Of a DNA stretch of 64,000 nucleotides, positions 26,871 through 63,500 are shown piece by piece (position 1 is the stretch's first letter; each line of letters begins with the position of its first letter). Under the pieces are notes generated by a model. The model made no database searches. It saw only the letters and a list, made by a program, of their open reading frames with translations, and had not been told where the DNA came from. Where the stretch lies: NCBI GenBank assembly GCA_020283715.1, contig JAIQCW010000204.1:30358-94357 (forward strand), read 5' to 3'. The DNA is from Cytauxzoon felis (taxonomy: Eukaryota; Apicomplexa; Aconoidasida; Piroplasmida; Theileriidae). A program made the position numbers and the translations under genes.

Positions 26871-28631
26871 ATGGATATACAAAATGAATCCATAGACTTG
26901 GCTGAGGTATTACAGTTGAGTGACGCTGTAGTAAGGGCAAGGATAAATATGATCGACGCTGAAATTAAAATATTGAAAAGTGAGCATACTAGGCTCAAAT
27001 CGCAGCAAAAAATAATACAAGATCGTATAAAAGATAATTTGGAAAAAATTCAACTTAATAAACAATTACCTTATCTTGTCGCCAATGTCGTTGAGGTATC
27101 ATTCCTTTAATGTATAACACCCAATCCATATTTTATAGTTACTAGACTTTGAAGAAGAGGAAGAAGAGTTCGGAGCGTTACAAAATGTTGTAACCAAGAA
27201 GAATAGTAAATCTCTAGTAATTAAAACATCCACTAGACAGGTTTTTATAGAATTTATAGATTATTAATATGTCCCTTAGACCATTTTTCTACCAGTAATA
27301 GGATTGATTCCACATAATGAGTTGCATCCAGGTGAATTAGTAGGTGTCAACAAGGACAGTTATCTGGTACTTGATAAATTACCACCAGAGTATGACAACC
27401 GTGTCAAAGCAATGGAAGTATGTGAAAAACCAACTGAAGACTACTCAGATATTGGTATATTTCTGGAATTATAAATTCTGTATATTCATAGGAGGATTAG
27501 ATAAGCAGATACAAGAATTAATAGAAGCTATAGGTAATTTTACACCAAATAATAATTTAATATCAATAGTTCTACCTATAACACATAAAGAACGCTTTGA
27601 CAAAATTGGTATAAAACCACCAAAGGGTATACTTATGCACGGGCCACCTGGTATGTTTACCTGAAGGGATATAAATAAGAACCGTCATCAATCCCATTTG
27701 AGGTCTAGGTCGTAGCGTCAAATATTCTTCGCACTTGAGGTCCAATCGCTACCTTCGCCACGATCTCTGGGAGTGGCTATACTCTTTAGAGATAGGTAAT
27801 TGGAAGAGCTGACGGCAAGACGAAATAATGTAATCAATGAGATGCAATTGACTCTCTTATTAAATTCTCTATATTGTACTTGTATAGGTACGGGGAAAAC
27901 GTTATTGGCGAGGGCATGTGCGGCTCAGGTTTGTTAAATTATTGTGATGATCTGACATTTATTAGACAAAGGCAACGTTTTTAAAATTGGCTGGACCACA
28001 ATTGGTGCAAATGTTCATTGGAGATGGTTCAAAGATGGTTAGAGATGCTTTCAATTTGGCTAAAGAGAAGGCACCTACGATTATATTTATTGATGAAATT
28101 GATGCTATTGGTACAAAACGTTTTGATAGTGAATTATCGGGCGATCGTGAGGTACAAAGAACAATGTTGGAATTACTGAATCAGTTGGATGGTTTTAGTA
28201 GTGATGATCGTGTTAAAGTTATTGCAGCCACTAATAGACCTTATACATTGGATCCAGCACTGCTACGTTCTGGACGTCTTGATAGAAAAATTGAGCTGCC
28301 ACCACCAAATGAAGGTACCGTACAAATACCTATTGTTTATAATAATTACTTAGAAGCTAGAGCACATATCATACAAATACACTCTAGGAAAATGAATGTT
28401 AATAAGGATACAAACTTTACTGAATTGGCAAGATCCACTGAAAATTTTAATGGAGCACAATTAAAGGTATCCTTTTAATTTATAATTCAATTACTAATAT
28501 AGGCTGTCTGTATCGAGGCGGGTATGGTAGCATTACGTAGAGGAGCAACTGAACTAGAGCATGAAGATTTCGTCGAAGGTATAACAATGGTCCAAGCTAA
28601 AAAGAAAAATCCGCTAAACTACCTTAGCTAG
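26871..28631 (+). CDS. RPT5: 26S proteasome regulatory ATPase Rpt5 (PSMC3)
   Basis: One of six AAA+ ATPases of the 19S base, which unfold substrates for the proteasome. The N-terminal coiled coil (about 26871-27100) precedes the OB domain and the AAA module. Walker A, GPPG|TGKT, is split by an intron; Walker B is [18 protein letters not shown]; sensor and Arg-finger region is [20 protein letters not shown]. The subunit identity comes from [18 protein letters not shown] and [12 protein letters not shown]. Two in-frame introns of about 36 nt (near 27533 and 28317) would otherwise look like insertions. The intron 27651-27887 is 237 nt because it holds a dispersed element. The protein ends NPLNYLS, lacking the usual HbYX tail. 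Confidence 0.93.
27693..27822 (+). mobile_element. Dispersed TIR element copy 1, in Rpt5 intron
   Basis: Forward copy entirely within the intron that splits Walker A of Rpt5. Contains ACTTGAGGTCCAATCG, the core CACGATCTCTGGGAGTGG, CTCTTTAGAGATAGGTAA and the GCTGACGGCAAGA arm. The left side repeats the terminal motif (CATTTGAGGTC), and the right terminus is degenerate. Confidence 0.88.
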
Positions 28632-28706
28632 TAATATTATATAATAATCGTTCAACATATTAAATGCACTATAATTCTTTGTGATGCTTATTGTAAATGC
28701 GATTAT

Positions 28707-29811: not shown

Positions 29812-30172
29812 TTTATATGGTCAACTATATAACATTTAGATGTGTATATAACAATGTAATAACTATTAAATATTAAGGCGAGTACAGTACTTTATACCTA
29901 ATTATAAATTTGTTCCATATTACTTTGATGTCGTTTTATGCTAGGATTTGTCTACACATTTATGGGGAGTGAAATTCATATAAATATACCAGTATAAGAG
30001 ACTTCTCCCTTAAATTAATCTTTAAAATCGACAATGAGTATCCATATAAATGTTTTAATACTTACTTAACTGCCAAATATGGAAATGGTATTTTCCTCAT
30101 AAATTATATTACATACACCACATTAATTCATTCATTCATTGAGCCTACAACTATGTTAAAGTCCATTGGATA
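29812..30172. other. Intergenic region, divergent promoters
   Basis: AT-rich spacer between the divergent four-TM gene and glyoxalase II. No ORF or repeat element seen. Confidence 0.4.
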
Positions 30173-31342: not shown

Positions 31343-31425
31343 AAAAATCACTCTAAATTTATAATTAACATATAATAAATTAAATAGTTTCAATCTATAT
31401 TATCAATTTTAATAGATTATACAGT

Positions 31426-31662: not shown

Positions 31663-32060
31663 TTTCTATAAAATTATACCAAATGAATATATATATGTTA
31701 AACTTTATAACAAAATTAATATAACTTATATCTTAAATCATCTATAATAGTAGAAGGCTACAATCAATATAAACCCCACCCATAAACAAGATCAAAATCT
31801 AACAAAACTAACAAAGTATTTAAATATAAATTATTATTATATTCAATTTTAAATTTTAAATGCTCAGAAGTAATAATATCATCAAAGGCAGCACCATATG
31901 AGCAAACTGCGAATGTTAGATGTATTATTTCATCATAGCATGAAGATTAACGGTCTATCATAATAGTACAATAAGAATATCACTTCATCAGAACAAATAA
32001 CTTCATATCAACGTTACCCAGATAAGGATATTACCAATTGAGGTAGAATTTATATCTTTT

Positions 32061-32300
32061 ACACCTGAATTCCAATCCAACCCTCCTTCCACTAGGCCCC
32101 ACCTGATGTCGTCTTGCAGACAGCTTCTTCTATTTATCTCCCCCTTCGCTTCCCTGAGATCAGCTTCGGGTAGTACACTTGAGGTCCAATCACTATCTTC
32201 TTCACCGCCACGACCTCCGGGAGTGGCTCTACTCTTTAGAGACAGGTAAATAGAGAAGGCTCCACGCCGAGTGGGATCAGAGGCTGTAACCTCAGGTGGA
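32061..32300 (+). mobile_element. Dispersed TIR element copy 2, 3' of RPLP0
   Basis: Forward, nearly complete copy between RPL38 and RPLP0, ending 29 nt from the RPLP0 stop. It shows, in order, the GTCTTGCAGACAGC arm, the Pro/Arg-type module CTTCGCTTCCCTGAGATC, an internal CACTTGAGGTCCAATC, the core CACGATCTCCGGGAGTGG, CTCTTTAGAGACAGG, the CACGCCGAGTGG arm and the right terminus AACCTCAGGTGGA. Useful as a reference copy. Confidence 0.9.
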
Positions 32301-32328
32301 ATGGATGTATAACCTTTCGTGTAGTTAT

Positions 32329-33850: not shown

Positions 33851-36800
33851 ATGTCATCAGATGATAGATATAAGTCTCTGAGGTCCAAGTATGGTAATTC
33901 TATTTAGATATTTGTCATATATTTACATTTTAGATTTGTTGAAGGATGCATTTAAGAAATTATATAATGATTATGAGGCGTTAAAGAGTGATTTAGTGAT
34001 TAAAATAGATGAGTATGCAAAATTACATGATGAAAAGACTAAATTACATGAGACATGTGAACAAATTACAGGTGAAAAGTTATCTATACAAGTAAATTTA
34101 TTAATTGATTATTATTTTTTTATTAATGATTTCAATGTTATAGAAATCATCAAAGTTACCTAGTACATCATGGGTTAATTCATTGGGTTTAATTTCATCT
34201 AAAAATGATGATGATATTAATAGATATATAGATGAGATTACATGTCTTAAAGAGAAACTTGATACATCAATTAAAGAAAATGGTATGTTTATTATTAATA
34301 ATTTTATAAAAATTATTTATAATTAGAATTATTAAAGAATCAATTTAATAGAGAATTAGAAGATAATAAAACAGAATATAATTTAATTATTGATGAACTT
34401 AAAGAAAGATTAATGGTGCACTATAAAATGTTGTTCTTTATTTTTTTATATTTATAGGTCTTAGAATGTATACTTAGAGATACACAAGAACAATTTAATA
34501 ATAATGAAAATAAATTAATTACAATTAATAATAAATTATTAAATTTATCCAATAAATTAAAAGATAAAGAATTAGAGATTGATTTATTAAATAAGAGGTT
34601 TTTATATTTTTTTATATATAAAATTTTCAATTTTTAGATTACAAATTGAAAAACAGCAGCAAGAAAATGAAACAAATTATTGGAAAATTAAATTATACAA
34701 TAAATTAAAATTTGATTTAAAATCTATCGATAATTTAAATAATAATAACATTTATCAAAATAATGTACACATTCTATAATTATCACAATATAATTATAAT
34801 ACAGATCTCATCCATCAATTATAATACACAAAATTTCAATCATACCATCAACCTCATCACACATCTACTCAAATCCTGGATCAAATGCCTCAAATTTAAT
34901 GACAATAACCATTTTATAACACATATCGCAAATAATATTAACGATGATAACATTCCATCTGAACTCCAATCCACCTCTCTTCGACTTGCAGACAGCTCTT
35001 CTAATTACCTATGTCTAAAGAGTAGAGCCACTCCCAGAGATTGTGGTGATGATGAAGGTGGAGATGAAATAAAGAGTAGTACTGGACCTCAAGTGGAGAC
35101 CTCAAGTGGAATACCTGGAAGCGATCTATGGGAGCTGGAAGGGGAAGTAAATAGAGGAAGCTACCACGGCGAGTGGAAGACCTCAGGTGGAGAAAATGGG
35201 GTAAAGGAGGGTTATGGGGATAATTTACCCCATGATTTGGATAAGAAACCTCATTATGTACCTGTGGAAGAAGGTGATGTAGTTAATATACCTCAGGTGG
35301 AACTCGAATGTGATCTACGGGAACTTGAGAGGGAGCTAAATAAAGGATCTGTCTGTAAGATGAAAGATAGTGATATAACCTTGAGTGGCCTACCCGAGAG
35401 CGATCTACGGGAGCTGGAGGGGGAACTAAATAAAGAAAGCTGTATGCAAGACGAAGATAAGGTTGTAACCTCAGGTGGAGCTGCGAGTCAGCACGATCAT
35501 TTGATTAGTAAATTGGATGATATATTATTGAGGGTGTGTTTCATTATTATATTAATGATATTTATAGATTACTGTTGTATTGGATGATACATGTGTTAAG
35601 ATAATGGGTATTTATGATGGTGATTGTATAAAATTTCAGAATTTACCAATGATATTAAATGTATTTTGAATATATTATAATAATTATTGAATTATTATTA
35701 ATAGGGTTTGAATAATTTTATTAGATTACAACGTTTATATTTATGTATTGAAGAGTATATATCACCTTGTTTATCATTTAGTACAAAAAATTTCATGTAT
35801 GTTGTATGATGTATTTTATATTTATAATTTATATAGTGTTTTATTAAATGAATTTAAATATTTATTAAAATGTTTATATTATAAATTTAACATAATTCTA
35901 TGTAAGTTTTTATATATAAAAATTTTATAATTACTTCATAAAGTTATATTATGGTATAAAAATAAATATGATAATGAATTAATATTAAATATTATTACAA
36001 ATTATAAATTAAAATTAGATTATAATAATAATAATAAATTAAATAATTTATTAAATTTATTAATAAAAAATTTATTTAATATATTAAATAATTTTATTAT
36101 TTTATTAAAAAATTTAAAAGAATATTTATCATATAGAATATGTTATCCAAAATTTATTAATAATAAATTTTATCCTTTATGTGGTGGTATTAATAATATG
36201 ATTAATTTAATAAAAATTATAAATTTATTATATAATAATTTATTATTATATAATAAATCATATTTATATTATCTATTTATTTACTTACAAAAATATTTAA
36301 AATTTAATATTGTTTATGAGAAAAATTTTTTATTATCAAATTGTTATATCAATCAACATCCTAATATTAATTATATTTCTAATATCAATTATAAATTAAA
36401 ATATTCTAATCAACGTATCAATCTTAATAATATCAATAATAATCTAATCATATCAAATTATAATATCAATCAATGCAAATCATTAAAAATAAAATAAATA
36501 ATCTACAAAATGAATTATACATCTATAATCTCAAATACAACAAAATCAATAATGAACTCAATCAAATCAAAAATCTAGACAAGTTACAAGAAATATGCAC
36601 CAATATCTTCAATCAATTACATCACACATACCAATCATATTATAACTCCACCAAAGATTCAAACACCTTCCCACTAGACGTGGAGCCTTATCCACCAGAA
36701 GTCAGTCCTGCCGTTAGCTCACGACCTGAAATTACAACCACTGTTGGTCCTGCAGACAGCTCCCCTAATTACCTATCTCTAAAGAGTACTGCCACTCCCG

Positions 36801-37450
36801 GAGATCGTGGCGGTAATGAAGGTAGTACTGGACCTCAGGTGGAGACCTCAAGTGGATTACCTGGAAGCGATCTACGGGAGCTGGAAGGGGAAGTAAATAA
36901 AGAAGCTCCATGCAATGGGAAAGATGGACCTCGGGTGGAAGCTGACGGCAGGACGACGGCAGGTGATAAGGAAATGACTCCGAGTGTGGTTGATTTGAAT
37001 TTATCATTACAAGAGGTTCAGAATAGTTTATGTGTTGAATTGGATATGGCCAACGATCGTATAAGGAAGTTGACGGTGCATTTGAAGAGGTTATTAAAGA
37101 GGATAGATCATTTGGAGGATTCAAATGAGCAATTGAAAAAGTTACTAGAGATAAAAAAGGAACAATATGAAATAATTAAAGACAATGAAGATTCTATTCA
37201 TTCAAATTATAATGAACAAATAGTATTAATGAGTGAACATATTAATGAACTTAATAATGCAATCCTATCAAGTGAAGTCAATATAGCAGAATATCGACAA
37301 TTAAGAATACCATGCAATTCGTGCGGATTCATTAATATACTAGGTATCCTATCACATAGCATCATCACAATTATCATAGGATCCATGATGAGCATCGATG
37401 ATAAAGGTAAATGCACCTCCTGTAGAAGCCTACTCATACACCTCAACTAA
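33851..37450 (+). CDS. Coiled-coil protein with extreme AT-rich exon, two element copies and C-terminal zinc ribbon
   Basis: Starts MSSDDRYKSLRSKY at 33851. Short introns join several coiled-coil exons (ALKSDLVIKIDEYAKLHDEK and others). An exon of about 500 nt at 35985-36497 is nearly all A/T and encodes runs of Asn, Leu, Ile, Lys and Tyr. There the frame ends at TAA 36495, and a second frame (36473-37450) goes on with coiled coil and ends in a CxxC...CxxC pair (PCNSCGF, KCTSCRS). One extra A in the runs at 36485-36494 would fuse them into one protein; two genes are the alternative. Reverse copies of the dispersed element lie in open frame in both halves. I do not recognise the family. Confidence 0.5.
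34955..35480 (-). mobile_element. Dispersed TIR element copy 3, compound, inside coiled-coil gene
   Basis: Reverse, enlarged copy of about 525 bp. The usual terminus is degenerate at the left (CCATCTGAACTCCAATCC) and intact at the right (AACCTCAGGTGGA). The module GATCTACGGGAGCTGGAGG occurs three times in imperfect tandem, each followed by a Glu/Asn-coding stretch. The whole copy is open in the frame of the host gene. Confidence 0.85.
35985..36480 (+). repeat. Low-complexity, nearly pure A/T coding stretch
   Basis: Roughly nine bases in ten are A or T, built of AAT/ATT/TTA/TAT codons, with only a few stops in the coding frame. Flanked by ordinary introns and coiled-coil exons of the same gene. 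Confidence 0.75.
36670..36965 (-). mobile_element. Dispersed TIR element copy 4, in open frame
   Basis: Reverse copy inside the second half of the coiled-coil gene. It reads through as SSPNYLSLKSTATPGDRGG, then TGPQVETSSGLPGSDLRELE, followed by GEVNK, and ends with the GCTGACGGCAGGA arm. No stop codon interrupts it. Confidence 0.85.
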
Positions 37451-38972: not shown

Positions 38973-41222
38973 TTAATCTAATTCACCTATATTAAATATC
39001 ATTTCACCTATATGTAATATATCACCACATTTTATACCAAATTTATTCATCTTATCCTTTATACCATTATTTTTTATCATACGTCTTAATTTCTCTATTG
39101 TTTCTGGTAGATCAAATCTCATCATTGATACCTTACGTTCCAAATATTCTGATATTATTCTATATTCATTATTAGATTCTCTAACAATTTTAAATCTTCT
39201 AGGATTCAATGATCTAAAGTCATCCAACATTTTGATGTTTGTATCATTAATCTTTTCCAAATATCCTTTAGGATCATCAATAAAATTTTGATGTACACGT
39301 GCAAAAATGCAACGAATTTCATCAATATTCTCCAATGTCTTGGCTGATTTAAACATGGGATTAAAATATTCTTTAAATTCCATACCTGAGAGATGATAAA
39401 TATTACAGTGTCCAGATTTGTTTTTAAATTCATCAATTAATTCCACAAGTCTATCATTAGAAATCAAGTCAATTTTATTGAGTAATATAATCTCTGTCTT
39501 TGATATCAATGTCTCATCATACAATTTAACTTCTCTCTTTACAGATTCATAATCCTCCAATGGGTCCTTAAAGAATAAATAAAGAAGGAAATTTTAAAAA
39601 AAACGTACTTTTGAGCTGGAATCTATTACATAAGATAATACATTACAACGTTCAATATGTTTTAAAAAATTATGACCCAGCCCACGACCCTCACTTGAAC
39701 CCTGTATCAAACCAGGTATATCAGCCAATACCAAATTTTCGTAAACATGTTGATCACTATTATTTACGGTTATAATATCATCTTGATATTCTTCGTTATA
39801 TGTATCATATTCATCGTCTGATATAGGGTAATTATCTTCTAAAGTTGACCTCATTTCCTTGTCTTGCAGACAGCTTCCTTTATTTACTTCCCCCCCCCGC
39901 TTCCCTGAGATCAGCAACGGGTTCCACTTCGACCTGAGGTCCAATCATTACCTTCTCATTGCCACGATCTCTGGGAGTGGCATTACCGTTTACGGGAAGT
40001 GAATTAGAAGAGCTGACGGCAGGATGGACCTCGAGTGGAGTAGATGTATGATCATCAATGGGGGTTTCATCAGTATAATTCTGTTTTATAATTGTGTAAT
40101 TTGGTGTTAAAAATACCCTAGTGTAATTCATGACACCATGTATGGGTTTTAATGTGCTAAATGGATAATTTGCTACCTTTGGTTTCGCATTTGTTAAACA
40201 ACGTAATATCGAACTTTTCCCTATAAATGATTAAATTATCGGGTAAATAATCCCCACCTGAATTAGGTTTTCCTATTAACGCTATGTGGCCTGGTATTTT
40301 ATATATTAAATTTATTATGCGTGATATCCCCTGTTCACCACGTTCACATATATTAGGTGCAGTATTACTGTATGATAAATATTTTGACACCACAATTTCA
40401 CATACAATTTAGACATGAAATATTTATTACCTTTACCACCTCTACCACCTCTTGCTATTCTTATCTTATCATCTTTATATCAATTAAATATATTAAATTT
40501 AATTATTTTCAAATTACCTGTTCCCATTAAATTCGCATACAACTCACCATCATCACTCATCACCACCGTACCAGATGGTACATAAATATACAAATCACTA
40601 CCCTTAGCCTGATAATTATAAATAATTATGTGGATAAATTACCCCATTACAACGTGATCCTTGACCATTTTTACCATTTTTAGCTCTATAAACAAAATTT
40701 TGTTTAACATGACTTAGAGTATTTAATGTTGGACTACATTTAATATAAACGTCACCACCAGGTCCACCATTACCACCATTAGCACCACCTAATGGCACAT
40801 GTTTCTCACGTCTAAATGATAAACAACCATCACCACCCCTACCACCAATCACATTGATCCTACACGAATCAATCAAATTATAATAATGAGATTCCTGATC
40901 CAAATCTATAGAATGAAATATAATCCACCAATAAACTACCATCAGTTACATCAAATTCAGACTCTTCTACACTAGATATGCCATTAGATGTCCATTCATC
41001 CTCATATACAGCACCTGATGTTGCCCACTCGCCGTGGTGGCCTACTCTATTTACTTCCGCTTCCGCTTCATGTGGATCAGCTGCGGGTAGGACAGTTGAA
41101 GTTACATCATCGAGTCCTCCAACAGTTTCTGATGATGCTTTAATGATACATGATGTTATAATTGTGATTTTATTTGGATACGAATGTAAGAATCCGAATT
41201 TATTAGCGACATTATTATACAT
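38973..41222 (-). CDS. Obg/CgtA-type GTPase with two element insertions
   Basis: Organelle-type ribosome-assembly GTPase. The glycine-rich Obg fold is clear: [37 protein letters not shown], then GGRGGKG. The G domain has G1 as GKPNSGKSS (split by an intron), G3 as [20 protein letters not shown] and G4 as LLNKIDL. ATG 41222 is the first in frame but the leader is unverified. Element copies lie near the N-terminus (about 40981-41125) and between G2 and G3 (39847-40040). In the family about 20 residues separate those motifs, whereas here about 130 would, and the frame breaks at a run of nine G; an intron removing the element is therefore likely, though its sites are not fixed. Confidence 0.82.
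39847..40040 (+). mobile_element. Dispersed TIR element copy 6, in Obg gene
   Basis: Forward on the plus strand, so opposite to the Obg gene. Shows GTCTTGCAGACAGC, a run of nine C (39890-39898) where other copies have mixed C/T, GAGATCAGC, the internal CGACCTGAGGTCCAATC, the core CACGATCTCTGGGAGTGG, the GCTGACGGCAGGA arm, and ends GACCTCGAGTGGA. Confidence 0.85.
40981..41125 (+). mobile_element. Dispersed TIR element copy 7, partial, near Obg 5' end
   Basis: Truncated copy lacking the core. Shows CCCACTCGCCGTGGTGG, TATTTACTTCCGCTTCCG, GGATCAGCTGCGGGTAGG and GTTGAAGTTACATC. Lies in a frame that stays open with the first Obg exon; a donor follows at about 40945. Confidence 0.7.
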
Positions 41223-41657
41223 AAAGGGCTCATTACATACGCCATGCGATATAAAATTACAGTTCGAGGCTGTTAAAGTCGATTTGTCGTAATTTACGCA
41301 GTCAACTCACGTGTTATCGACCAATATATCAAACGTTCAAGTGAACGAGTGAACAGTCCTAAACGACATGACATTAGACAATTTAAAAAATTAACATACT
41401 TAATCTCAGTGATAAACAATAATCATTTACAAATAAAAAAATATATACAAACCAATTAAGTAGATGAAATATCATCAACATTAAATGGAATGGTCAGTAG
41501 ATCATATAGAAAAGCCAAAGGATACTAAAGGGGGTATTAAATGAATAATTAAACAGATTAATATTTCATTATTAAATTGCTTTAGTTTATTATACAAGTG
41601 ATTGTTAAATGCGATTATAACTCAATGTTACATACAATGTGTTAAACATAATAATCA
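41223..41657. other. Spacer between Obg start and CHIP stop
   Basis: About 435 nt between two genes on the minus strand, containing the presumed Obg promoter. AT-rich; no element copy. Confidence 0.4.
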
Positions 41658-47887: not shown

Positions 47888-47951
47888 TAAATATTTTAAT
47901 AATCATAACAAATTTATATACATATTATAAATAATCCCTCGTCATACCACT

Positions 47952-48112
47952 CCACTTGAGATTACATCATCAACACTAGTTCCATCTTCGCCATGATCTC
48001 CGGGAGTGATATTACTGTTTAGAGATAGGTAATTAGAAGAGCTGACGGCAGGACTAACCTCGGGTGGAGCGGTGAGTGGAAGAGGAGAAGGTAGTGATTG
48101 TAACCTCAGGTG
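47952..48112 (+). mobile_element. Dispersed TIR element copy 10, between PRP4 and Rieske gene
   Basis: Forward intergenic copy occupying most of the 387-nt gap after the PRP4 stop. CCACTCCACTTGAGATT left terminus, core CATGATCTCCGGGAGTGA, TGTTTAGAGATAGGTAATT, GCTGACGGCAGGA arm, ACCTCGGGTGGAG and a final GTAACCTCAGGTGTA. Confidence 0.85.
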
Positions 48113-48274
48113 TAATGTTATCTACAAGGCAAGGAAAGATGTAATGAAAAAAGAGGTGCAGTAGGCAACATCAAAGTAGTAATTATTCTATTGGTATAAA
48201 CCCTATTATTAATGTTTATGTTGTGGTATAATATTTCATCTAATGTGTGATATGTCATAATTATCTTCTTGCTG

Positions 48275-48848: not shown

Positions 48849-48907
48849 TATTTTATAATTTGTTTAATAATGTTGTTGTCTAGCGGATTAATTGTTCGTA
48901 CCTATTT

Positions 48908-49084
48908 CCACTTTAAGTTCGACCCATCTCTTCCACTCGCCGTGGTGGTCTTTAATTACTTCCCCTCGACTCCAATTGATCTTCTTGGATAGTTGCCACA
49001 ATCTCTGGGAGTGTCTCTACTCTTTAGAGATAGGTAATTGGAAGAGCTGTCTGCAAGACAATGTGTGATTGTACCTCAGGAGGA
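48908..49084 (+). mobile_element. Dispersed TIR element copy 11, intergenic
   Basis: Forward copy between the convergent Rieske gene and the next gene. CCACTTTAAGTTCGACCC, CCACTCGCCGTGGTGG, core CACAATCTCTGGGAGTG, CTCTTTAGAGATAGGTAA, arm GAGCTGTCTGCAAG, and GTACCTCAGGAGG at the right. It would lie in the 3' UTR of one or both genes. Confidence 0.87.
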
Positions 49085-49112
49085 ACATTCATACTTCGTA
49101 GATGAATGATAT

Positions 49113-49735: not shown

Positions 49736-51200
49736 AGGAATTTGAGGATATATAATACTTTAATGACTTGAAATATATGTCGTATAAGGAAATGTTTGTA
49801 TATTTCATTGAGCGAACTGTTATATATATGAAGTTCTGAGTGACTCACTACACCTCAGTGCCTTCTTATGTCTACACATCCCCCAGTATTAGTTAATATT
49901 TTTGACCTAATAATTTTCATATTGTTGAAAATTTATCGAAAATTATATACTTCACTATTTTTATAGATGATTCATCAGTCTAATTAACCTTCTGATGATT
50001 AAAATGTGTAATGATTTTAAAATTAATTTCATAATATAAATAATAAATTATTAAATGTGCTATTTAAATTATAAATTTCATCATCCACTTAAATTGAGTA
50101 ATTTTATTTAATCTTATGGTAATTTAAGTGATTTACAATAATTCCTATAAAACATGTCAAAATGTGTATACAGAGAGGTATAAGTTTTCCAAACTACACT
50201 TCATTACATATCATTCAATGTCATAATATATCGACCAGTTACTATAAGCTATACATTTAAGGTCTGTAGCTTCTGTTTTATTAGCCGTCTAGTATATGAC
50301 TGTGTAAAAGCGCTGAAATATCTTGTATAAGATCATTAATTCACGAAATTGTGTTGTCGTTTCTAGTATAAAACATCGGTATATTTATGTTATTCATAAT
50401 AATAATTTATATTCTGGAGATGAAATATACCACATAACATGAATATATTTAATATTTTTTCATCAAAACATAATAGTAATACAAATAAGTTTGTATTACT
50501 ATAAGTTGTAATCGTTATAAATATACCATTTATTGATAAATAAGTATTATCTCTTACTAGATGTTTCCATCATGATACAAAATATAAAATTATTAAATTT
50601 GCCCAATATTGTTATGGGGTATAAACCCCATGTATGTAGTTTGAGTGTTAATAATGTAATTTGTACAGATACTAATGACTTAAACAATAGCAGAGATCTA
50701 TTATAATGTGAATTTTAACTTATATTTAATATTAAAGTTGTAATAACAATTATAAAAAAAAATTGAATATAAGCTAAAAAGTATGTTGTATAAAATAACT
50801 AATAATATTATTATAATATGAAGCAATAACAATTAATAAAAATCATATATATTGTTATTTATCTGAGATTCAATCTACCTCTTCTTCCAGCCCTACTCTT
50901 TTCGTCTTGAGACAGCTCTTCTATTACATATCTCTAAAGAGTAATGCCACTCCCGGAGATTGTTATCTGAGGGTGAAGGTAGTAATGATTGGACCTCAAG
51001 TGGAACCCGCAGCTGATCTATGGGAAGCGGAGGGGGAAGTAAATAGAAGAGCTGATGACATACTTGAGGAAGATACCTCGAGTTGATAGTTATATACTAA
51101 TTGACGGCAACCAGTATATTCCTTAGTGTGGGTTTATGTACTTCATTTATGGGTAAATATAATTATAATAAATAGATTACACATTAATTATATATATAGA
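49736..51200. other. Largest gene-free stretch of the window
   Basis: About 1.46 kb between divergent genes. 49736-50860 is AT-rich, with no frame over about 60 codons, no introns I can pair and no element copy; it may hold promoters or a noncoding transcript. 50861-51085 is an element copy listed separately. Confidence 0.45.
50861..51085 (-). mobile_element. Dispersed TIR element copy 12, upstream of CSL4
   Basis: Reverse copy ending about 115 nt before the CSL4 start, so it may be in its promoter or 5' UTR. TATCTGAGATTCAATC, CCACTCCCGGAGATTG core, internal GATTGGACCTCAAGTGGA, GATCTATGGGAAGCGGAGG, and ATACCTCGAGTTG at the right. Confidence 0.85.
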
Positions 51201-52472
51201 ATGTGTGATAATTTCGTATATCCTGGTTCATTTGTAGGTTTTACGAGTGATTATTTACCAGGAGACAATGTATATGTTCGTGATTCTGTAATTTATTCCA
51301 GTGTTTTGGGGAATTTATTTACAACTCCAGATGAAAAAAATGTAAATTTGAAAAATATATATTTAAATTTTATTTAATTTCAATTTAGAAAGTGATTGTA
51401 AGTGTTACCTCCAAAAATGTCAAAATACCATACGTTGGTGCCATTGTTATTGCACAGATCGTTAAATTATATCGCAAACAAGCGGATTGTATAATAATAT
51501 GTGTAAATGGTAGAATATTGAAGGATGTATACAAGGGGATCTTAATGTATGTTGATGATTTTATCTATTATTTCCTAATTCCATCTCATCATCATCTGTG
51601 GATAAACATGAGGTTGAATACACTACAAATTATTCACCTGAAATTTAATCCTACTCTTCTTCCACTCGGAGTGGAGCCTCTTCCTTTTATTTCCTCTTCC
51701 AACTCCCAGAGATCGTGGCAGTTATGTAGTTAGTACAAGACCTCGAGTGGAACCCGCAGCTGATCTCAGGGAAGCGAAGGGGGAAGTAAATAGAGAAAAC
51801 CACCACTTCGAATGGAAAAGTATATATACTGCACTTTATCTTAGATAGACAATGTTTATATCACGGATTTTTCTACTTTTCATCCATACTCTTAGGTCTA
51901 ATAATGTACACGAATCCAAAAATATTGACATTGTTTTATATGATTGGTTCAAGCCTGGTGATATTATAAGGGCTAAAGTCGTAAGTTATAATAACACTTT
52001 ACACATTTCCATTAGATCTACGCAAGTTCTAGCAAGCAAATTGTTCTAAGCACCGCACAACTAAATCTTGGTGTCATTAAAACGAAAGCACTCAATGGTA
52101 TTTATTCCCACACATTTCAATATTTCACGAGTCTCATTTTGCATTCCAGTTTCACTTGAAGTTCAATTCACTTCTCTTCATCCTGTCGTCAGCTCTTCCA
52201 ATTATCTATCCCTAAAGGGTGATGTCACTCCCGGAGATCGTGGCGGAAGAGTAGTGATGAGATAGAAGGTGGTGATTGGACCTGTTAGAATTGTGTATAT
52301 AATGATGGATTTTATTATGGGATTTTAATATATAATTTTATAGGTGAAGATATGATTCCTATATCATGGAAGTATTTTATGTCCATTAAATCAGGCGCAA
52401 TAGAAAAAAGGTATATTTTCATATGATAAATTTAATATAAATTATAGAAAAGTAGCAAAAATTGAAAATTAA
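51201..52472 (+). CDS. CSL4: Exosome cap subunit CSL4 (EXOSC1)
   Basis: S1-domain cap protein of the RNA exosome, which degrades and trims RNA 3' ends. Exons: FVYPGSFVGFTSDYLPGDNV, YVRDSVIYSSVLGNLF; then VGAIVIAQIVKLYRKQADCI (S1 start) and ILKDVYKGIL; then NIDIVLYDWFKPGDIIRAKV; then IVLSTAQLNLGVIKTKALNG; then EDMIPISWKYFMSIKSGAIE, then KRKVAKIEN. Order and spacing follow human CSL4 closely. Two introns (51547-51895, 349 nt; 52098-52343, 246 nt) contain element copies, whereas the others are about 25-45 nt. The zinc-ribbon cysteines of yeast-type CSL4 are absent, as in animals. ATG 51201 is preferred; an upstream exon adding MYFIYG is possible. Confidence 0.9.
51633..51816 (-). mobile_element. 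Dispersed TIR element copy 13, in CSL4 intron
   Basis: Reverse, shortened copy inside intron 51547-51895. CACCTGAAATTTAATCC, CCACTCGGAGTGGAGCC, CCAGAGATCGTGGCAG, ACCTCGAGTGGAACCC, GATCTCAGGGAAGCGAAGG. The core is partly deleted. The acceptor lies in a pyrimidine-rich tract 75 nt beyond the copy. Confidence 0.83.
52151..52283 (-). mobile_element. Dispersed TIR element copy 14, in CSL4 intron
   Basis: Reverse, compact copy inside intron 52098-52343. TTCACTTGAAGTTCAATTC, CCCTAAAGGGTGATGTCA core, CTCCCGGAGATCGTGG, ending GTGATTGGACCTG. At about 130 bp it is the smallest copy with recognisable ends. Confidence 0.83.
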
Positions 52473-52482: not shown

Positions 52483-53674
52483 TCACATTATTATCGCATC
52501 TATCAAATTCATCGGTATATCTTCACCAGAACTATCACCAACAATATTTTCAACAGAAGCCTCCTCATTAGAGTCTACCTGAATTCCTTTCCTTGTCTTG
52601 CAGACAGCTTCTCTATTTGCTTCCCCTTCCAGCTCCCGTAGATCGCTGCGGGATCCACTTGAGGTTACATAAGTACCTTCACCACGATCTCTGGGAGTGG
52701 CTTTACTCTTTAGAGATAGATAATTGGAAGAAGCCACCACGCCGAGTGGAACAGAGGTGGATTGGACCTCAGGTGGTTCTGTAAGATTATTGTTATATGA
52801 TTTATGTTTATTTTTTTTCATTGATTTAAATTTTAATTTTTTTTTCTATATCGAGTTGATTGAGGTAGTGATTATTAATTTTTTTATCATTAGCGATTAG
52901 TACACTTAATTTTTCTTTCCTTTCACGTTTATGTTTAGACCAATATTCTATTAGATGATGCCATTTAAATTTTGGTAGATATGTAATATTCCATAAATCT
53001 TGGCTCCAGAATGCGTGCTTGCGTTTATCACCTATCGGTTTATTGTTCAATAATTTCGATACACTTTTGGCTATACCCTTATCTTCAAATTGTATCCATG
53101 CATGTGTAAATTTCAATTTCTTATTACCACCCAATTTTATACGCTTCTTATAATCATTTTCTGATTCTGGATGAGCATATATCTTACCAATTCTACCAAA
53201 ACCACTAAAATATGAACGTAATTTAGATACACCCATATAAGGAGGTAAACGAGATATATATATTATACCACTTTTATCCATGTCTTTCTCACCAGATAAC
53301 AACATATGACAATTTATTCCTACATCCACTTCATTAGGAAGTGAACTATCCACCTGAGACCCATCAATATCTTTTCCTCTTGCAGACAGCTCTCCACCTG
53401 AGGTCCTTCCACTAGGCATGGTACCTCTTCTATTTAGTTCTCCCTTCGCTTCCCTGAGATCAGCTACGGGTATTCCACTTGAGGTCACATCCTCACTTCC
53501 GCCACGATCTCCGGGAGTGGCTCTACTATTTAGAGATAGGTAATTGGAAGAGCTGTCTCCAAGAGGAAGAGAGTTGGATTGGACCTCAGGTGGAGAGTCT
53601 CCACGGCAAGTGGTATACAGGATTCTGACTTCAGGTGTATATACATGGCCTTTGGTAAATTTAGACCTTTTCAT
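52483..53674 (-). CDS. ESF2/ABT1-type ribosome biogenesis protein, with possible homopolymer frameshift
   Basis: RRM protein of the 90S pre-ribosome that activates a DEAH helicase. Diagnostic blocks: SGIIYISRLPPYMGVSKLRS, GKIYAHPES, KFTHAWIQFEDKGIAKSVSK, HAFWSQDLWNITYLPKFKWH and HLIEYWSKHKRERKEK. The frame stops at 52826, but just before it is a run of nine T (52837-52845); with one fewer, the frame continues through KLKFKSMKKNKHKSYNNN to 52483. The two halves are listed as one gene on that basis. Elements occupy 53350-53638 and 52576-52776, both open in frame; each can also be removed by phase-0 GT..AG pairs (for example GGCCAT|GTATAT with CTCAG|GTGGAT). ATG 53674 replaces a GTG at 53689. 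Confidence 0.82.
52576..52776 (+). mobile_element. Dispersed TIR element copy 15, in ESF2 3' part
   Basis: Forward on plus, so reverse to its host gene. CTACCTGAATTCC, GTCTTGCAGACAGC, CCAGCTCCCGTAGATCGC, CACTTGAGGTTACAT, core CACGATCTCTGGGAGTGG, CTCTTTAGAGATAG, CACGCCGAGTGGA and ATTGGACCTCAGGTGG. Read on the host strand it has CCACCTGAG|GTCCAATC at the 5' side and ATTCAG|GTAGAC at the 3' side, a phase-0 pair. Confidence 0.88.
53350..53638 (+). mobile_element. Dispersed TIR element copy 16, in ESF2 5' part
   Basis: Forward on plus, reverse to host. CCACCTGAGACCC, TCTTGCAGACAGC, CCACTAGGCATGG, CGCTTCCCTGAGATCAGC, CACTTGAGGTCACAT, core CACGATCTCCGGGAGTGG, GAGCTGTCTCCAAG, GGACCTCAGGTGGAG and a second end ACTTCAGGTGTA. 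Two nested right ends suggest a copy inside or beside another. Confidence 0.87.
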
Positions 53675-53828
53675 TACTTTAATCGACACTCTAAGGCATT
53701 ATACTAATGTACATGATTAAAATTATTTACGATATACAATTTATTTACATAGTGATTGGGTGCGATGTTTTGATAACAAGTGTGGTATTAGGAGCACGAG
53801 GTTAAAGTTGATAAGATATGGATATATA

Positions 53829-54855: not shown

Positions 54856-54889
54856 ATCGAGATAATATAATGTACTAGACTTGTATACT

Positions 54890-55025
54890 CCACTAGAGGT
54901 CCAATCCAACTCTCCATTTCACTCGCCTCCACCTGAGGTTACATCTACAAATTATCGCCACGATCTAGTGGACCTGGAGGGGGAAATAAATAGAAGAGTT
55001 GACGGCAGGACGACCTCGAGTGTAA
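54890..55025. mobile_element. Dispersed TIR element copy 17, degenerate, intergenic
   Basis: Damaged copy between the DnaJ stop and the convergent ELM2-like gene. CCACTAGAGGTCCAATCC, CCACCTGAGGTTACATC, CACGATCTAGTGG, GGGGGAAATAAATAG, arm GTTGACGGCAGGA and ACCTCGAGTGTAAC. Confidence 0.75.
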
Positions 55026-55165
55026 CATTTAGTGGATTGACCCTAGGAAAATATAATATAGTATAGAATCACCTTAGGTTTATGAACTGACGGCGGGGCT
55101 GGGGCCTTGATAAATCAGTTAAATAAATTAAATATACCACAATGGTGGTTTAAATTATTAGCAAT

Positions 55166-56022: not shown

Positions 56023-57464
56023 ATGCCCAGATTTACACATTTTTATATAACCATTTATTATTTATCTTCAATTAATTGTAATTTAATACCTTCACTTGAA
56101 TTTAATAATCAGTCATGTGTCACCTTAACTAGCCCCAATTCATTATTTAACCGGAGACTTTGTGAGGTATTTCTATCCATTCTAGTACGATATCACTTCT
56201 GTAGGAGGTTGGATTAACCCCTTGTAGCTCCACCACTGCCATATGTAATGTCAACTCCATCGTTTTACAAAATTCCAATGATAAACAACGATGTTTAGCC
56301 ACACTGTTAGGCCTTTTCGCTACAATTTCATGTATATTTATAAGATGTGCACGTCGATTTTCATTCTTTACACAGGCCAACATGATTTAAAGCCCAAAGA
56401 TTATATTCGTTATGGCAAAAATAACATCACCGTCGTCTATGTATGTAAAGACGTTTGCAAGTCACTCTGGAAAGGTTAGTTCTACTAAACACACTGAAGA
56501 ATCACGACTCTAAAGAAGTACAACAACTAATATGTTAACCACTTCCACTTGAAGTCCAATCAACTTCTTCACGTATTCCCATTGCATGGAGCTTCTCTAT
56601 TTACTTCCCCCTTCGCTTCCCGTAGATCAGCTCCAGGTTCCACTTCCACTTAGGTCCAGTACTAGTCTTCCGCCACGATCTCTGGGAGTGGCTATACTCT
56701 TTAGAGATAGGTAATTGGAAGAGATGTCTGCAAGAGAAAGAGAGGTATATTGACCTCAGGTGAAGGTGGACAACATTTATTTATTGTGTTTATGATTTAC
56801 ATTTTATATTTCTTACAGCGTGTTCACCTCGTGCGGAGACGTTTTTTGCGGATATTTTATCAGAGGACGAATCTAAGCAGTGAGTTTCATTAGACGTGGG
56901 TATTATTTGCACTATTATTTATCAGATTCTGTAAAGATTTGACATTGACTTCTAGTCGTGTTCAAATTAGATCAAGAGATGACAAGCCTTGTCTATCAGA
57001 AGGTATTAAAATGTCCGACGAAGGTACATTGAAATTGAGTACTCTATCATCCCTTAATTTCCTTAGAAGTAGAAGAACTGAATTGGATTCTCGGAGATTC
57101 GGTATGTTGATTATAGAATAATATCTCATTACTGCCTTAGATTAGTTGGAGCCTTTTGAGATCCAAATGGAAGGGTGTGTTTGTTGGTGGATAAGATGAA
57201 TAATAAAAAATTTTAATTAGGTGTATTTATAATATTATTTATAATATTCCTAACATTTACAACAATATATTTAAGAAATGGTAAGGACTTTATGGATATA
57301 TTTAGCCATTGATACTCTTAGGTTATCTAAATCGCAAGAGGGTATTATTGGATGATGGAGCTGATGTTAGTCTTTGTTAATATTATAAATGTTATGAAAA
57401 ATATTTTTAGATTGATGATGAGATTGATAATTTCATAGAGTTGGATCTCAATAATTATAGATAA
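56023..57464 (+). CDS. Putative type I membrane protein with cysteine-bearing ectodomain
   Basis: ATG 56023 opens a signal peptide (FTHFYITIYYLSSINCNLIP). After a 19-nt intron at about 56166-56184 and others, exons carry spaced cysteines (VVYVCKDVCKSLWK, KACSPRAETFFADIL, QFCKDLTLTSSR), then a hydrophobic span VFIILFIIFLTFTTIYL and a tail ending DLNNYR at 57464. Layout: signal, luminal domain, one membrane segment, short acidic tail. The joint near 57105-57170 is not resolved; the gene could end at 57121 or be two genes. Family not recognised. Intron 56475-56818 (344 nt) holds an element. Confidence 0.5.
56545..56765 (+). mobile_element. Dispersed TIR element copy 18, in membrane-protein intron
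   Basis: Forward copy inside intron 56475-56818. CCACTTGAAGTCCAATC, TTGCATGGAGC, CGCTTCCCGTAGATCAGC, core CACGATCTCTGGGAGTGG, CTCTTTAGAGATAGGTAA, GAGATGTCTGCAAG, and TGACCTCAGGTG at the right. Confidence 0.87.
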
Positions 57465-57548
57465 CATAATAATATGTCTATGGGGGACTAGTATAATCTC
57501 TTTGTATTATATACCTATATATTTAGTATTATAAATGCACTTTTTAAA

Positions 57549-58946
57549 ATGAGGATAATTGATAGTATGTTGATTGAATCCTTTTCATCCTTTAATATAA
57601 TTTCATTCCATAGATGATTCCATATCAGAAACTAAATGGGCAGATATCGAAGCCGATGAAGATTATGATGAAAGTATAAGCGCCCACAACCTTCTGGGAT
57701 TTGAATCAGCCGCCGATTCACAAGGTATTAAAACTATAATCTCATATTCCAAAAATACACGCGGCCAATCTGTAAAAGTATGTTTTATCTGGAATCACAA
57801 GTGAACTATTGACCAATCCACTCGAGGTTACGACCACCTTAGGTTCAATCCTACTCTTCTCTACCACATCTCTCTTTCCACTCGCCATGGAGGCCTCTCT
57901 ATTTACCTATCTCTAAAGAGTAAAGCCACTCCCAGAGATCGTGGCAGTGGAGAGGATAGTCATTGGACCTCAGGTGGAATACCTGGAAGCGATCTACGGG
58001 AGCTGGAAGGGGAAGTAAATAGAAGAGCTGTCTGCAAGAGGAAAGTAAGGTTGTAACATAGACTGGATCACATGTTAATTCTATATCCCTTCGGAATTTA
58101 ACATCTTTTTTTAGATAACAAAGAGGGTTAAGGAGATACGTATTAAGAAATTGACGAATCGTGCAGTATTTAATCGTAAGGATTTGCGTCCTTTTAATTT
58201 GAATGAGGATAATGATACTGGTGTTGTGATTGTATCTAATGAGGATATAATGATAGAGGTACCAAAGGGTAATAGAAGATTTCAAGAGGATGACTTTGAA
58301 TGTATCTATATGGTATGCATATTATTAATTATAATTCATTACTAATAATATTTTTTTAGCCACCTGATACAAATTTATTGAGATTAACTAGAGAATTAAA
58401 AATGAAATTTAAAAGTCTTAAAGATGATGATGATACTGTATGTATTTTTTTTGTTAAAAACCTCACAATTTATCCCCATTTTTATCAGGTTGATGAAATT
58501 GATGAGAAAGAGACTACAGCTAAATATGTACCACCATCACGTAAAGATGGCGATAGAAGAAGTTTTGTAAGTTGATTTTATATCTATCCCCATAGAATAT
58601 TCCCATTTTATAGGAAGAGTTTACTATACGTATTACTAATTTAAGTGAAGATGTTAAAGAAAAGGATCTTACAGATCTATTCGGTACTATAGGACGTATA
58701 CATAGGGCATATTTAGCTAAACACAAGTGGGGTTTAATTTATTATTAATAAAAAATTTAATTAGGGAAACACAAAGTTCAAAAGGATTCGCATTCATAAC
58801 ATACACAAATAAAGAAGATGCACTCAATGCAATCAATAAATTCAATCGTTGGGGTTATAATAACCTACTACTAAATGTACGTTACCATAAAACAAAATCA
58901 CACTCTTCAGGTTGAATGGGCCAGACCACCCGCCAGAGATCGATAA
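57549..58946 (+). CDS. EIF3G: Translation initiation factor eIF3 subunit g
   Basis: Scaffold subunit of eIF3, acting on the 40S subunit in scanning. Exon 1 (MRIIDN) splices to DSISETKWADIEADEDYDES, the usual eIF3g opening (SWAD). Middle exons have ITKRVKEIRIKKLTNRAVF, NRKDLRPFN and, before the RRM, KYVPPSRKDGDRR. The RRM has IRITNLSEDVKEKDLTDLF, GRIHRAYLAK, KGFAFITYTNKEDALNAI and ends NVEWARPPARDR. The CCHC zinc knuckle of animal eIF3g is missing; its place is taken by an acidic linker. Intron 57778-58114 (337 nt) contains an element; the others are 30-50 nt. Confidence 0.92.
57818..58060 (-). mobile_element. Dispersed TIR element copy 19, in eIF3g intron
   Basis: Reverse copy inside intron 57778-58114. 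Its reverse complement is nearly the same as copy 21 in USP5, including the spacer around GGTCCAATGACTATCC and both arms (GCAGACAGCTC and CTCCATGGCGAGTGGA). Left end CCACTCGAGGTTACG; the right end is less clear (AAGGTTGTAACA). Confidence 0.88.
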
Positions 58947-58997
58947 ATTAAGGTATGAACCCGAATCAATATTACCACCCATAATTCAAGACCCGGT

Positions 58998-59127
58998 GTC
59001 CAGTCCTCTACTTTCTACTACACCTTCACCACGATCTCTGGGAGTGGTTCTACTCTTTAGGGATGACTAAATAGAAGAAGCCTCCACGGCGAGTGGAATG
59101 AAGAGTTGGATTGGACCTCGGGTGGAG
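58998..59127 (+). mobile_element. Dispersed TIR element copy 20, intergenic
   Basis: Forward copy between the convergent eIF3g gene and the next gene. CACCACGATCTCTGGGAG core, CTCTTTAGGGATGACTAAAT, CTCCACGGCGAGTGGA, ATTGGACCTCGGGTGGAG. The left module is deleted. Confidence 0.83.
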
Positions 59128-59184
59128 AGCTGCCGGTAGGGAATCTCTAATGGATGATGTTTGCCTGAGGAAATTAATTAGTCT

Positions 59185-60420: not shown

Positions 60421-60559
60421 ATCTAAACATTTCGGTAGTACTGGATGATTTTATGGAGAGACGGTTGTCATGGGGGATATATACTATAAATCTCCTTAAT
60501 TATGTGTTACATGTATTTATATTCTATTACATTAAATAATAATTTAGTAATAATTAATT

Positions 60560-63500
60560 ATGAATGATGTTTGTAATATCCTTAATCAATTGTGTGAATC
60601 ATTGTCACTCTATGTCCCTACCGAGCAGACAACGGTATATAAATCTGAGTGTTTATTCAGGTTTGTTTATTATACTACATAATTCTGTTGTAAAATATCG
60701 TTATTAATATAAAACTCGCATTTATTTAAAAATGTGTTGTTGATTTCTGCATTGAATCGTCATGTCTTTCCCCAGTTCATATCCACGTCTATAGTACCGA
60801 TAATGAGTACTCGCCTTACGGTCTATATATAAATTTATCAACATTCGAATCTTATGGAAAGGAATTATTAATGTATGATAGGTATTACGTAAATTCCATA
60901 TACCTCCATGTCACGAAGATACGTACCCCTATACCGGAAACTGAACAAATTATCGGTGAAATTAATGAGGATAACAACACTACAGTGTGAGTTTTGTATT
61001 ATTAATCCCCCATCTTTCATTGTTGTAGTTTTAAGGAGAAAAGATTATATAATGAGGTCGTCGAGTATGAGATATTCTCCCCGAACATTGGTACAATACC
61101 ATTAGAGGAAGCTAATGGTCTACTATTAGATGTAATTCACTTGTTATAAATACACATAAGCCTATTATAGGTCTGCAAAGGAGTCATCGAACATGGTGGC
61201 TCATCTATCGACGCTAACACGTTGTCTTGGATCAACACTGTACAAGTATGTTGAAATTTAACGAACATATTTAATGAAATGTTGGAGTTAATCTTCTATA
61301 TGAATTATTATTATCCTTTTCTTTAGACAAGTAAATATGCGATGGATTTAGTGCAGGTTGATGATCCTATTAAGATATCTCCATCGGATTTGAGGTGTAG
61401 GAGATGTGGTTCTGAGAAGAATATATGGTTGAATTTATATGATGGGTATTTATAATATATTTGGAATTATAATTTTATAGGTATATTGGTTGTGGGCGTA
61501 AATATCACGATGGCAATGGTGGTTGTTTAGATGGTAATGAAGGAGCGTCTATAATTCATTATAACGTATGGAGTTTTTAAATATAAAAATTGATGATTAC
61601 AATTAGGAAACGGGTAAAATTTATCATTTAGTTGTTAAGATTGGTACTATAACTCAAAATAGTGCAGATGTATACAGTTATGCTCCTGTAAGTCTATTAC
61701 TTATCATGAATTTATATTTATAGGATGAGGATTGTCTAGTATATGATCCATTATTAAAGAAACATTTACTCAAGTTTGGTATCGATACATCGTATGTCAA
61801 ATTAAACTATAAGAAAATAAAACTCAATCTAGAGATTTAAGCGTTACCGAAAAAACAACCATGGAATTAGAATACGAAAAAAACACCAGATACGACTGGA
61901 ATGATGTATCATCCACGGAAGAAACCATATATAAACGAGGGTTTGTTGACTAAACACAATAACACAGATATTGTCCACTCCACTTGAGGTTGTCTTGCAG
62001 ACAGCTCTTCTATTTACCTCCCCTTCCAGCTCCCGTAGATCGCTTCCAGGTATTCCACCTGAGGTCCAATGACTATCCTCTCCACTGCCACGATCTCCGG
62101 GAGTGGCTATACTCTTTAGAGATAGGTAAATAGAGAGGCCTCCATGGCGAGTGGAAAGGAGAGTCTGACTGTAACCTCAGGTGGAGTTGAAAAGTGGAAC
62201 TTGAGTTAGCTTCATTGATAATATGATGTCAGGACAACATTTTATTTGTAAATCTTTTGGATTATATTGGCTAATTTATTTATAGGTTGATTGGTATGGA
62301 GAATTTGGGTAATAGTTGTTATATAAATTCTGTAATACAAGTGAGTTTAGATTGTTATAAATGAATTAATTCAAGGTTCTTGTATCAATTGATGAATTTT
62401 CTAATTATTTTGTTGATCATTTTCATGATTTAGCTTTATATTCATCTCAGGTTGGTATTTGAATTGTTATTAAAGTCGTAAATATTTATATATAGATTGG
62501 TATAATAAGTGATGATATTGTATTACAATTTGCAAAGATTTGTATTGATTTAAAGACGGATAGGTATATAAATTTACATTTGGAGAGTATAAAAATGTAT
62601 AAAGATAAATGTTTAAGTTTTAATATTGAATACATTGAACCAGAATGTAAATTTAATATTATAAATTATATACAATTTTAATAGGTTATAAAATATTTTC
62701 AATAAAATCAAACTTATTTAAATATGCTATTGGTAATTATAATACATCATTTAGTACTAATGAACAACAAGATGCTGAAGAATTCTTAAGTCTATTAATA
62801 AATTTATTTAATGATATGGAAAATGATATTAATTTAAGATGTAATAATAATAAATTTAATGTCAAACCACTCTTTTACTTCAAGGTATATCAATTATAAT
62901 CTTAAATTATAAATATATTTACATAAATAGACCAGACAAAGTGTTATTATAGAAAATCTCCAAAAAATCAATCATACCAATATAAATACACATATACTCT
63001 CACTACCCGTACATAATAATCAAGTCAATGATGAAACTTACAATCACAATCAAGAAATACACCTAAATGTATGTTTATTAATAACAAAAAAGAACATAAC
63101 AACTGTAATGGCATCCACTCCACCTGAGGTCCAATCACTATCATCTCCCTTTCCACTCGGCATTCCAACTGAGATCGTCTTGCAGACAGCTTCTCCACTT
63201 ACTTCCCCCTCCGCTTCCCAGAGATCAGCTACGGGTATTCCACTTGAGGTCCAGTACTCTTCACCTTAGCACCATCTTCCATCATTCCCATAATGGATGA
63301 TCCATCACTACCTTCACCACGATCTCCGGGAGTGGCTATACTCTTTAGAGATAAGTAAATAGAGAAGCTGACTGTACGACTTTCGGTTTATGAATCCTCA
63401 ATGTAATGCTTATATTAAATATTTAGGAATGTCTATCGATGTGGTTGAATGATCATGAGATTGTATATATATCGGAATCTGATAAGAAGCGACATCATGC

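Follow-up and report, generated by a model that had tools for sequence, protein, structure and literature searches.

Miniature inverted-repeat transposable elements (MITEs) and foldback transposons are short, non-autonomous elements with inverted ends and high copy number. Selfish DNA that lodges in protein-coding genes in the manner of the Rickettsia palindromic elements (RPE) is, to our knowledge, known only from bacteria, archaea and organelles. The available sections of PMC2229807 describe RPE as stem-loop repeats of 105–146 bp with inverted ends, which are intergenic or fused in frame in conserved genes, and mark their target-site duplication as unknown; they also describe how stability and activity were compared for Rickettsia guanylate kinase with its insert and without. 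Palindromes within eukaryotic protein-coding genes are described in the available part of PMC6649704, namely the mitochondrial coding palindromes of Nematomorpha and the palindromic elements of Magnusiomyces. Here we analyse a 64-kb stretch of the genome of Cytauxzoon felis (contig JAIQCW010000204.1, positions 30,358 to 94,357; the whole stretch is called the window), which carries 23 copies of a palindromic repeat. With a probability of about 0.68 for the statement as a whole, we consider that these copies belong to a family of short palindromic repeats that extends across the genome, behaves like the Rickettsia coding palindromes, and spreads and is filtered in the way proposed below.

The 23 elements, delimited by an all-against-all BLAST depth method in the window, lie between 27,727 and 63,381 on both strands and are 100–295 bp long. 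This recovers the roughly 22 related sequences that the original prediction had placed on both strands between 27.7 and 63.4 kb, although the upper bound of its length range (130–530 bp) was somewhat high. The end motif CCACCTGAGGTCCAAT has 29 matches at no more than 3 mismatches in the window, against 0.25 expected from shuffles, and the core CACGATCTCCGGGAGTGG has 19 matches against 0.00 expected. The copies are also richer in GC than their surroundings, as had been predicted (0.49 within 179 sampled elements vs 0.28 in the remainder of C9:1-80000, C9 being a second contig). Each element is a GC-rich chain of small hairpins arranged as two half-units, B and A, of which the B half reads GCTCTTCYAATTACC-hairpin-GCCACTCCCGGAGATCGTGGC and the A half reads ACCYG..AGC-GATCT..GGGA-GCT..GGAAGTAAATAGAAGAGC, and the outer hairpin slots are filled interchangeably by GTCTTGCAGACAGC, GTCCTGCCGTCAGC, CCACTCGCCGTGG, CCACTAGGCGTGG or CCATTGCATGGAGC. 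On the strand that is read as peptide in genes, a full copy runs from a border palindrome CCACCTGAGGT through an outer slot, B, a spacer, A and a second outer slot to another border palindrome. Palindromes of CCACCTGAGGT are frequent at unit borders, the spacer between B and A often contains CCACTTGAGGT or its inverse, and the halves are also found singly, doubled or facing each other. No Rfam family reaches its gathering score in the window, and a structured RNA family was rejected on that ground; a tRNA-like reading was rejected as well, no tRNA being found.

Confinement to this contig, which the original prediction had named among the grounds for dropping its mobile-element reading, is not seen: the family spans the whole genome, a point that the original prediction had overlooked. 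In the 8.62 Mb searched (181 contigs; the published genome has 9.1 Mb with 31.8% GC and was built from 454 reads, according to the available sections of PMC3748084), the exact core CACGATCTCYGGGAGTGG has 2,536 matches and the A half 3,260 at no more than 2 mismatches, with none for the reversed control of either, and the exact end motif has 687. A 174-kb sample (C119:358-94357, C119 being the contig of the window, and C9:1-80000) holds 83 elements and 50 exact cores, which gives an estimated genome total of about 4,100 copies when scaled by length and about 4,200 when scaled by cores. The first figure may be biased by the choice of contigs, as C119 is the window's own and C9 was picked as a long contig with known matches, and the second depends solely on how many elements there are per exact core. 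Elements make up 18.8% of C9:1-80000, 5.1% of C119 and about 11% of both combined. The catalogue used below comprises 179 elements (167 of them oriented) from both contigs and 34 further loci of 1.7–3.2 kb, and it leans to full copies, since 33 of the 34 came from element searches; gene models are open reading frames (ORFs), not annotation. The family was not met in the open-licence literature as far as its available sections go, PMC6310948, PMC10058880 and PMC3748084 included. Likewise, the survey of 64 apicomplexan genomes by Rodriguez and Makalowski (PMC9141347) reports, in its available sections, no transposable element in C. felis and no class II transposon, MITE candidates having been discarded there as likely false positives.

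The copies are unevenly spread. A region of 57 kb (C119:358-30357 and window positions 1-27,700) is free of elements, with no end-motif remnant and a single core-like match at 2 mismatches, and directly adjoins the 36 kb that hold the 23 copies. Its tetramer usage deviates (L1 distance 0.15–0.20 vs 0.09–0.10 among element-bearing parts), its GC content at third codon positions is 0.255 vs 0.18–0.21 elsewhere, and its cover by long ORFs is 0.62–0.67 vs 0.28–0.48, the latter values being reduced by the masking of elements. The region contains ordinary genes, for example for importin and an SMC protein. As for a foreign origin, the tetramers deviate, but codon usage does not set the stretch apart.

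The original prediction had also missed that copies within genes can be read as protein. With few exceptions, copies in ORFs are read on one strand and in one frame, as an insert rich in Ser, Thr, Pro and Glu whose peptide includes DLREAEGELNREA. In the window, six of the 23 copies are in frame within ORFs that extend at least 20 codons beyond both ends. Of 142 elements with 300-bp flanks, 22 lie in ORFs of this kind, against a chance level of 5.4 (sd 2.3, largest 18 in 200 runs) with shuffled flanks and of 5.7 (sd 2.2, largest 11 in 200 runs) with swapped elements; in view of these chance means, some single cases in ORFs are therefore due to chance. When the flank condition is dropped, 24 elements have a peptide-strand ORF of that kind, 23 of them in the standard frame throughout (by eye) and one with its B part out of frame, while five elements are open in that way on the opposite strand, three of the five on the peptide strand as well. 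Moreover, the spacing between A and B is divisible by three in 17 of 18 ORF copies, vs 43, 26 and 24 by remainder in 93 other copies, and the five common outer modules all read through in the peptide frame (by eye). In the 111 B-bearing copies that lie outside detected ORFs, this frame has on average 2.25 stops, compared with 4.4 and 4.7 in the other frames of the same strand, and it is interrupted in 90 of them. The host genes identified by Pfam or homology encode ESF2, Saf4/Yju2, CAF1B/HIR1, Sec23/Sec24, a CW zinc-finger protein and a FAINT-domain protein, and several host genes are conserved; no Pfam family was found for four of nine hosts in one search set and three of five proteins in another.

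As single-stranded DNA the elements fold more stably than control sequence, with a median z of -3.1 in 125 elements of 150–330 bp (66% below -2), vs -0.06 in 60 stretches of C9 (8% below -2) and -0.22 in 40 stretches of the element-free part (15%). The alleles of the B stem keep their pairing, being CTC/GAG in 97, CCG/CGG in 8 and CCC/GGG in 7 of 124 copies, and at three column pairs of the A stem there are 63–67 double changes in 147 copies, vs 30–33 with shuffled columns, and 7–10 broken pairs. In addition, the copies appear to have been reshuffled in blocks. The two outer modules within an element agree in 19 of 86 cases, vs 21.2 expected, and thus assort independently; the matched left and right modules of a single inherited pair of terminal inverted repeats were rejected on this count. 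Cramer's V is 0.60–0.85 inside a 20-nt block of the A half and mostly no more than 0.30 between blocks, with values of 0.41 for the left module and a neighbouring A column and of 0.36 for two B sites 2 nt apart. In a 1,307-codon ORF (C9:27338-31258, plus strand; L050:7338-10000 and L051), there are three elements, two of which share an identical 40-residue centre DLYPEEQRMSTPKNKECQPLRTGNLPGRTKNVNPEEQECN, and this identity suggests recent copying within one gene.

Further evidence comes from cf76, which encodes a surface antigen and is a single exon of 723 amino acids with two element copies. The published forward primer has one exact match in the genome with an exact match of the reverse primer downstream, and a 722-residue translation of the locus has a 100% match to the C. 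felis database entry Surface antigen cf76. According to the available sections of PMC3748084, the cf76 ORF and three fragments were amplified from cDNA, and a cell-free system served to translate the cloned fragments. Two of the primers, the reverse one for fragment 1 and the forward one for fragment 2, have exact matches within the first copy. Because these cDNA-cloning primers lie inside it, the element is present in cf76 mRNA and is transcribed at least in this gene; the available sections of PMC3748084 contain no remark on a repeat family. The same sections report that sera of surviving cats give a strong reaction to full-length cf76 and to its C-terminal fragment and a weaker one to the other two, and the C-terminal fragment begins at L059:3534 and hence contains the second copy. 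Gaps of 23, 5 and 1 residues in the first copy separate the alleles of 723 and 706 amino acids (the latter a cluster of 4 member sequences), and substitutions between them cluster also in about 60 residues upstream of it. The available sections of PMC3748084 report a 30-bp tandem repeat in the C-terminal part, which is present as a single unit in one of 11 samples; the top-scoring tandem in cf76 consists of two copies of a 33-bp unit, made of an outer module and a border palindrome (L059:3944-4010), which is probably this polymorphic repeat and shows how modules can duplicate in tandem. A protein search with an element part from another host returned only cf76 at E ≤ 0.1 among 884 candidates, which were drawn from a database of 5.8 billion proteins by similar length and shared words only.

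These data bear on the idea that the repeat is functional and kept by selection, as a regulatory, insulator or RNA element near genes or as a protein motif that spread for its useful peptide, such as an antigenic decoy. Conservation is indeed uneven, many positions varying by 0–4% while some near them vary by 35–60%, the hairpins are conserved, and the cf76 fragment best recognised by feline sera contains one copy. Yet the peptide frame is stopped in most B-bearing copies outside detected ORFs, copies occur on either strand, the genes that carry them include housekeeping ones besides those for antigens, and the 57 kb with ordinary genes do without any copy, so that we regard a selected function as very improbable.

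A second account takes the family for a MITE or foldback type of non-autonomous DNA transposon, whose transposase is now lost or unrecognised and whose mosaicism arose later by gene conversion. The inverted ends, the related inverted arms and the dispersal on both strands speak for it, as does a longer class in which two A arms flank an AT-rich centre of about 300 bp (L018:2690-2890; L060-L071), much like families of internally deleted transposons. This class was scored at 40 places of 402 candidates, with 84–100% identity to the query, five of twelve loci taken from it were aligned, and it could offer a lead to an autonomous relative; apparent empty sites among repeats of one context were rejected, the context being the centre of this class. 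However, neither 70 elements with clear ends nor a boundary-free test of 156 elements yielded a target-site duplication, although in either test one could be missed where the real ends are unclear. A genome search with the profiles PF10551, PF13358 and PF01797 gave no match, the controls for each having worked, the survey cited above finds no class II transposon among its 64 genomes, and in 123 elements the two ends resemble each other no more than shuffled ends do. A transposon origin is thus unlikely, though well ahead of a selected function. The part of the original prediction that stands, as far as tested, is a dispersed, mobile-type and non-autonomous repeat, and the conventional transposon with terminal inverted repeats finds no support. 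The sole match to the reverse transcriptase profile PF00078, the only such family searched, lies in an ORF carrying Telomerase_RBD and represents telomerase, which leaves a short interspersed element or other retroposon with no reverse transcriptase able to move it within this search. A repetitive extragenic palindrome (REP) moved by a REP-associated tyrosine transposase (RAYT) was rejected as PF01797 is absent, and an Introner was rejected as the three introns that were read (56.5, 57.8 and 63.1 kb; by eye) overrun the element on both sides.

We return to the palindromic-repeat reading. Dispersal, a frame filter in exons, hairpins, mosaicism and the absence of a detectable duplication are each demonstrated or strongly indicated by the data above. 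On this basis, copies would land more or less anywhere, and purifying selection would remove those that break genes; in exons, the copies to survive would be those with an open frame and frame-preserving lengths, where the insert may be tolerated in loops and linkers. Spread and reshuffling might be carried out, and here we are less sure, by the repair of the cell itself with no dedicated transposase, when breaks induced by hairpins or stalled forks are repaired from other copies through template switching and gene conversion. Such repair-driven spread, which we hold slightly likelier than even within the probability given for the whole statement, would explain why the blocks are largely independent, why hairpin variants compensate each other, why no target-site duplications can be detected and why the two cf76 alleles differ in their modules. 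A stronger version is tentative and falls somewhat short of even odds: a nuclear genome overrun by coding-compatible palindromes, propagated by transposase-free hairpin template switching, whose slots keep one frame and which may thus colonise exons, add disordered segments to essential proteins and diversify antigens like cf76 by module exchange between loci.

Several observations weigh against this reading. No empty orthologous site was seen at the DNA level, because of which movement is inferred from dispersion, and the strain comparison covers one gene and two protein clusters, where it shows changes of modules rather than the presence or absence of a copy; the two cf76 alleles share an identical second copy. 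Five Theileria orthologues of ESF2 have no element peptide, in a protein-level comparison of a poorly conserved region. An open peptide frame is present in 21 of the 111 B-bearing copies that lie outside detected ORFs, and these may be undetected exons or young copies. The variability of coding copies by codon position has no clear excess at the third position, and this test for selection on the peptide gave no clear positive. The covariation in the A stem largely reflects two subfamilies, so that relatedness could inflate the signal, and an association between the left module and the A subfamily (V 0.38, p 2e-5) shows that the independence of the blocks is incomplete. At every length, the ends have slightly more direct repeats than the shuffled mean, yet stay within the shuffled range. 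The transposase search covered few families (the three named above), and the Helitron profile PF14214 had no match in the genome, but its controls were silent too.

The 23 window elements are listed below by coordinates; the strand is that of the core CACGATCTCYGGGAGTGG, and the peptide runs on the opposite strand.

27727..27828, plus strand: B half only (found by core and depth method)
32056..32312, plus strand: B+A, open in one frame of the peptide strand, with short flank extensions of 14 and 17 codons
34946..35194, minus strand: B+A, in frame within ORF 34763-35587 (plus)
35264..35488, minus strand: two A halves, in frame within ORF 34763-35587 (plus)
36671..36965, minus strand: in frame within ORF 36473-37450 (plus), 325 amino acids
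37466..37697, minus strand: directly 3' of the stop of ORF 36473-37450
39847..40050, plus strand: in the Obg-type GTPase gene (minus strand)
41012..41111, plus strand: A half, in frame within ORF 40881-41306 (minus), the other strand being open too
43288..43557, no strand assigned: two A halves facing each other
46384..46593, plus strand: B+A, entered by ORF 45685-46560 on the core strand and not in the peptide frame, possibly in an intron (by eye)
47946..48128, plus strand: B half
48907..49087, plus strand: B half with a degenerate second half (by eye)
50886..51055, minus strand: B+A, peptide frame open, with extensions of 23 and 10 codons
51631..51820, minus strand: mosaic of B and A halves
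52145..52268, minus strand: B half
52574..52786, plus strand: B+A, in frame within ORF 52486-52845 (minus), C-terminal end of the ESF2 orthologue (by eye)
53346..53639, plus strand: B+A, in frame within ORF 52826-53689 (minus), N-terminal part of the ESF2 orthologue
54881..55036, minus strand: A half and border palindromes
56539..56781, plus strand: B+A, in an intron (by eye)
57817..58067, minus strand: B+A, in an intron (by eye)
59014..59140, plus strand: B half
61958..62192, plus strand: B+A, between two genes (by eye)
63111..63381, plus strand: B+A, in an intron (by eye)

By eye, the non-ORF copies thus include those in introns at 56.5, 57.8 and 63.1 kb, possibly that at 46.4 kb, and an intergenic one at 62.0 kb; the gene around the last element listed is presumably ubiquitin-hydrolase-like. 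The copy at 57817..58067 is 98% complementary over 166 nt to that at 61,993, and positions 61,976-62,192 fold as single-stranded DNA with a z of -4.7. The gene at 39-41 kb, which has PF09269 on its last (3') exon, is one that we take to be of the Obg GTPase type. Its element sits between two stretches that presumably are switch I and the DxPG strand, and the peptide frame stays open when followed inwards from either flank, the two frames meeting at an internal C run. The ESF2 and Obg ORFs break close to single-base runs (near 52,830-52,850 and 39,880-39,945); such frame breaks at base runs may be errors of the 454 assembly, and coding copies may therefore be undercounted. A weak match to the snoRNA SNORD14 (29.3 vs a gathering score of 64 bits) lies outside the elements at 31860-31941 on the minus strand.

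With about 4,000 copies, the family appears to occupy about a tenth of the C. felis genome, despite a survey whose available sections report no transposable element there (PMC9141347). It would extend RPE-like selfish DNA in protein-coding genes to the eukaryotic nucleus, and would make both the spread of hairpin repeats without a transposase and the tolerance of proteins for inserted segments open to test. The vaccine candidate against cytauxzoonosis, cf76, carries two copies, one of them in its most sero-reactive fragment, and if antibodies see the element peptide, many unrelated parasite proteins could be recognised. Furthermore, gene prediction and strain comparison in C. felis should mask or model the family.

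Among known systems, MITEs share terminal inverted repeats with the C. felis family; unlike them, it shows no target-site duplication detected in our tests and no transposase among the families searched, its outer modules assort independently, and it is readable in one frame. The palindromes of Nematomorpha are organellar and perfect inverted repeats, and those of Magnusiomyces are organellar and bypassed in translation (both as given in the available part of PMC6649704), whereas the C. felis family is nuclear and its copies in genes keep an open frame. The closest systems in behaviour would be RPE, together with the Wolbachia coding palindromes, the latter known here from a reference title in PMC2229807. 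Like RPE, the C. felis repeats are short palindromic stem-loops (median z -3.1, n=125, vs -0.06, n=60) found in frame in conserved protein genes and also between genes (the latter by eye). Unlike RPE, they reside in a eukaryotic nuclear genome with introns and not in a bacterial, rickettsial one, have an ordered architecture of two halves with interchangeable hairpin slots, and reach an estimated 4,000 copies or so and about 11% of the sampled DNA. We thus suggest, from a likeness of behaviour, that the C. felis family works like RPE, but, its host being no rickettsia, do not file it as RPE.

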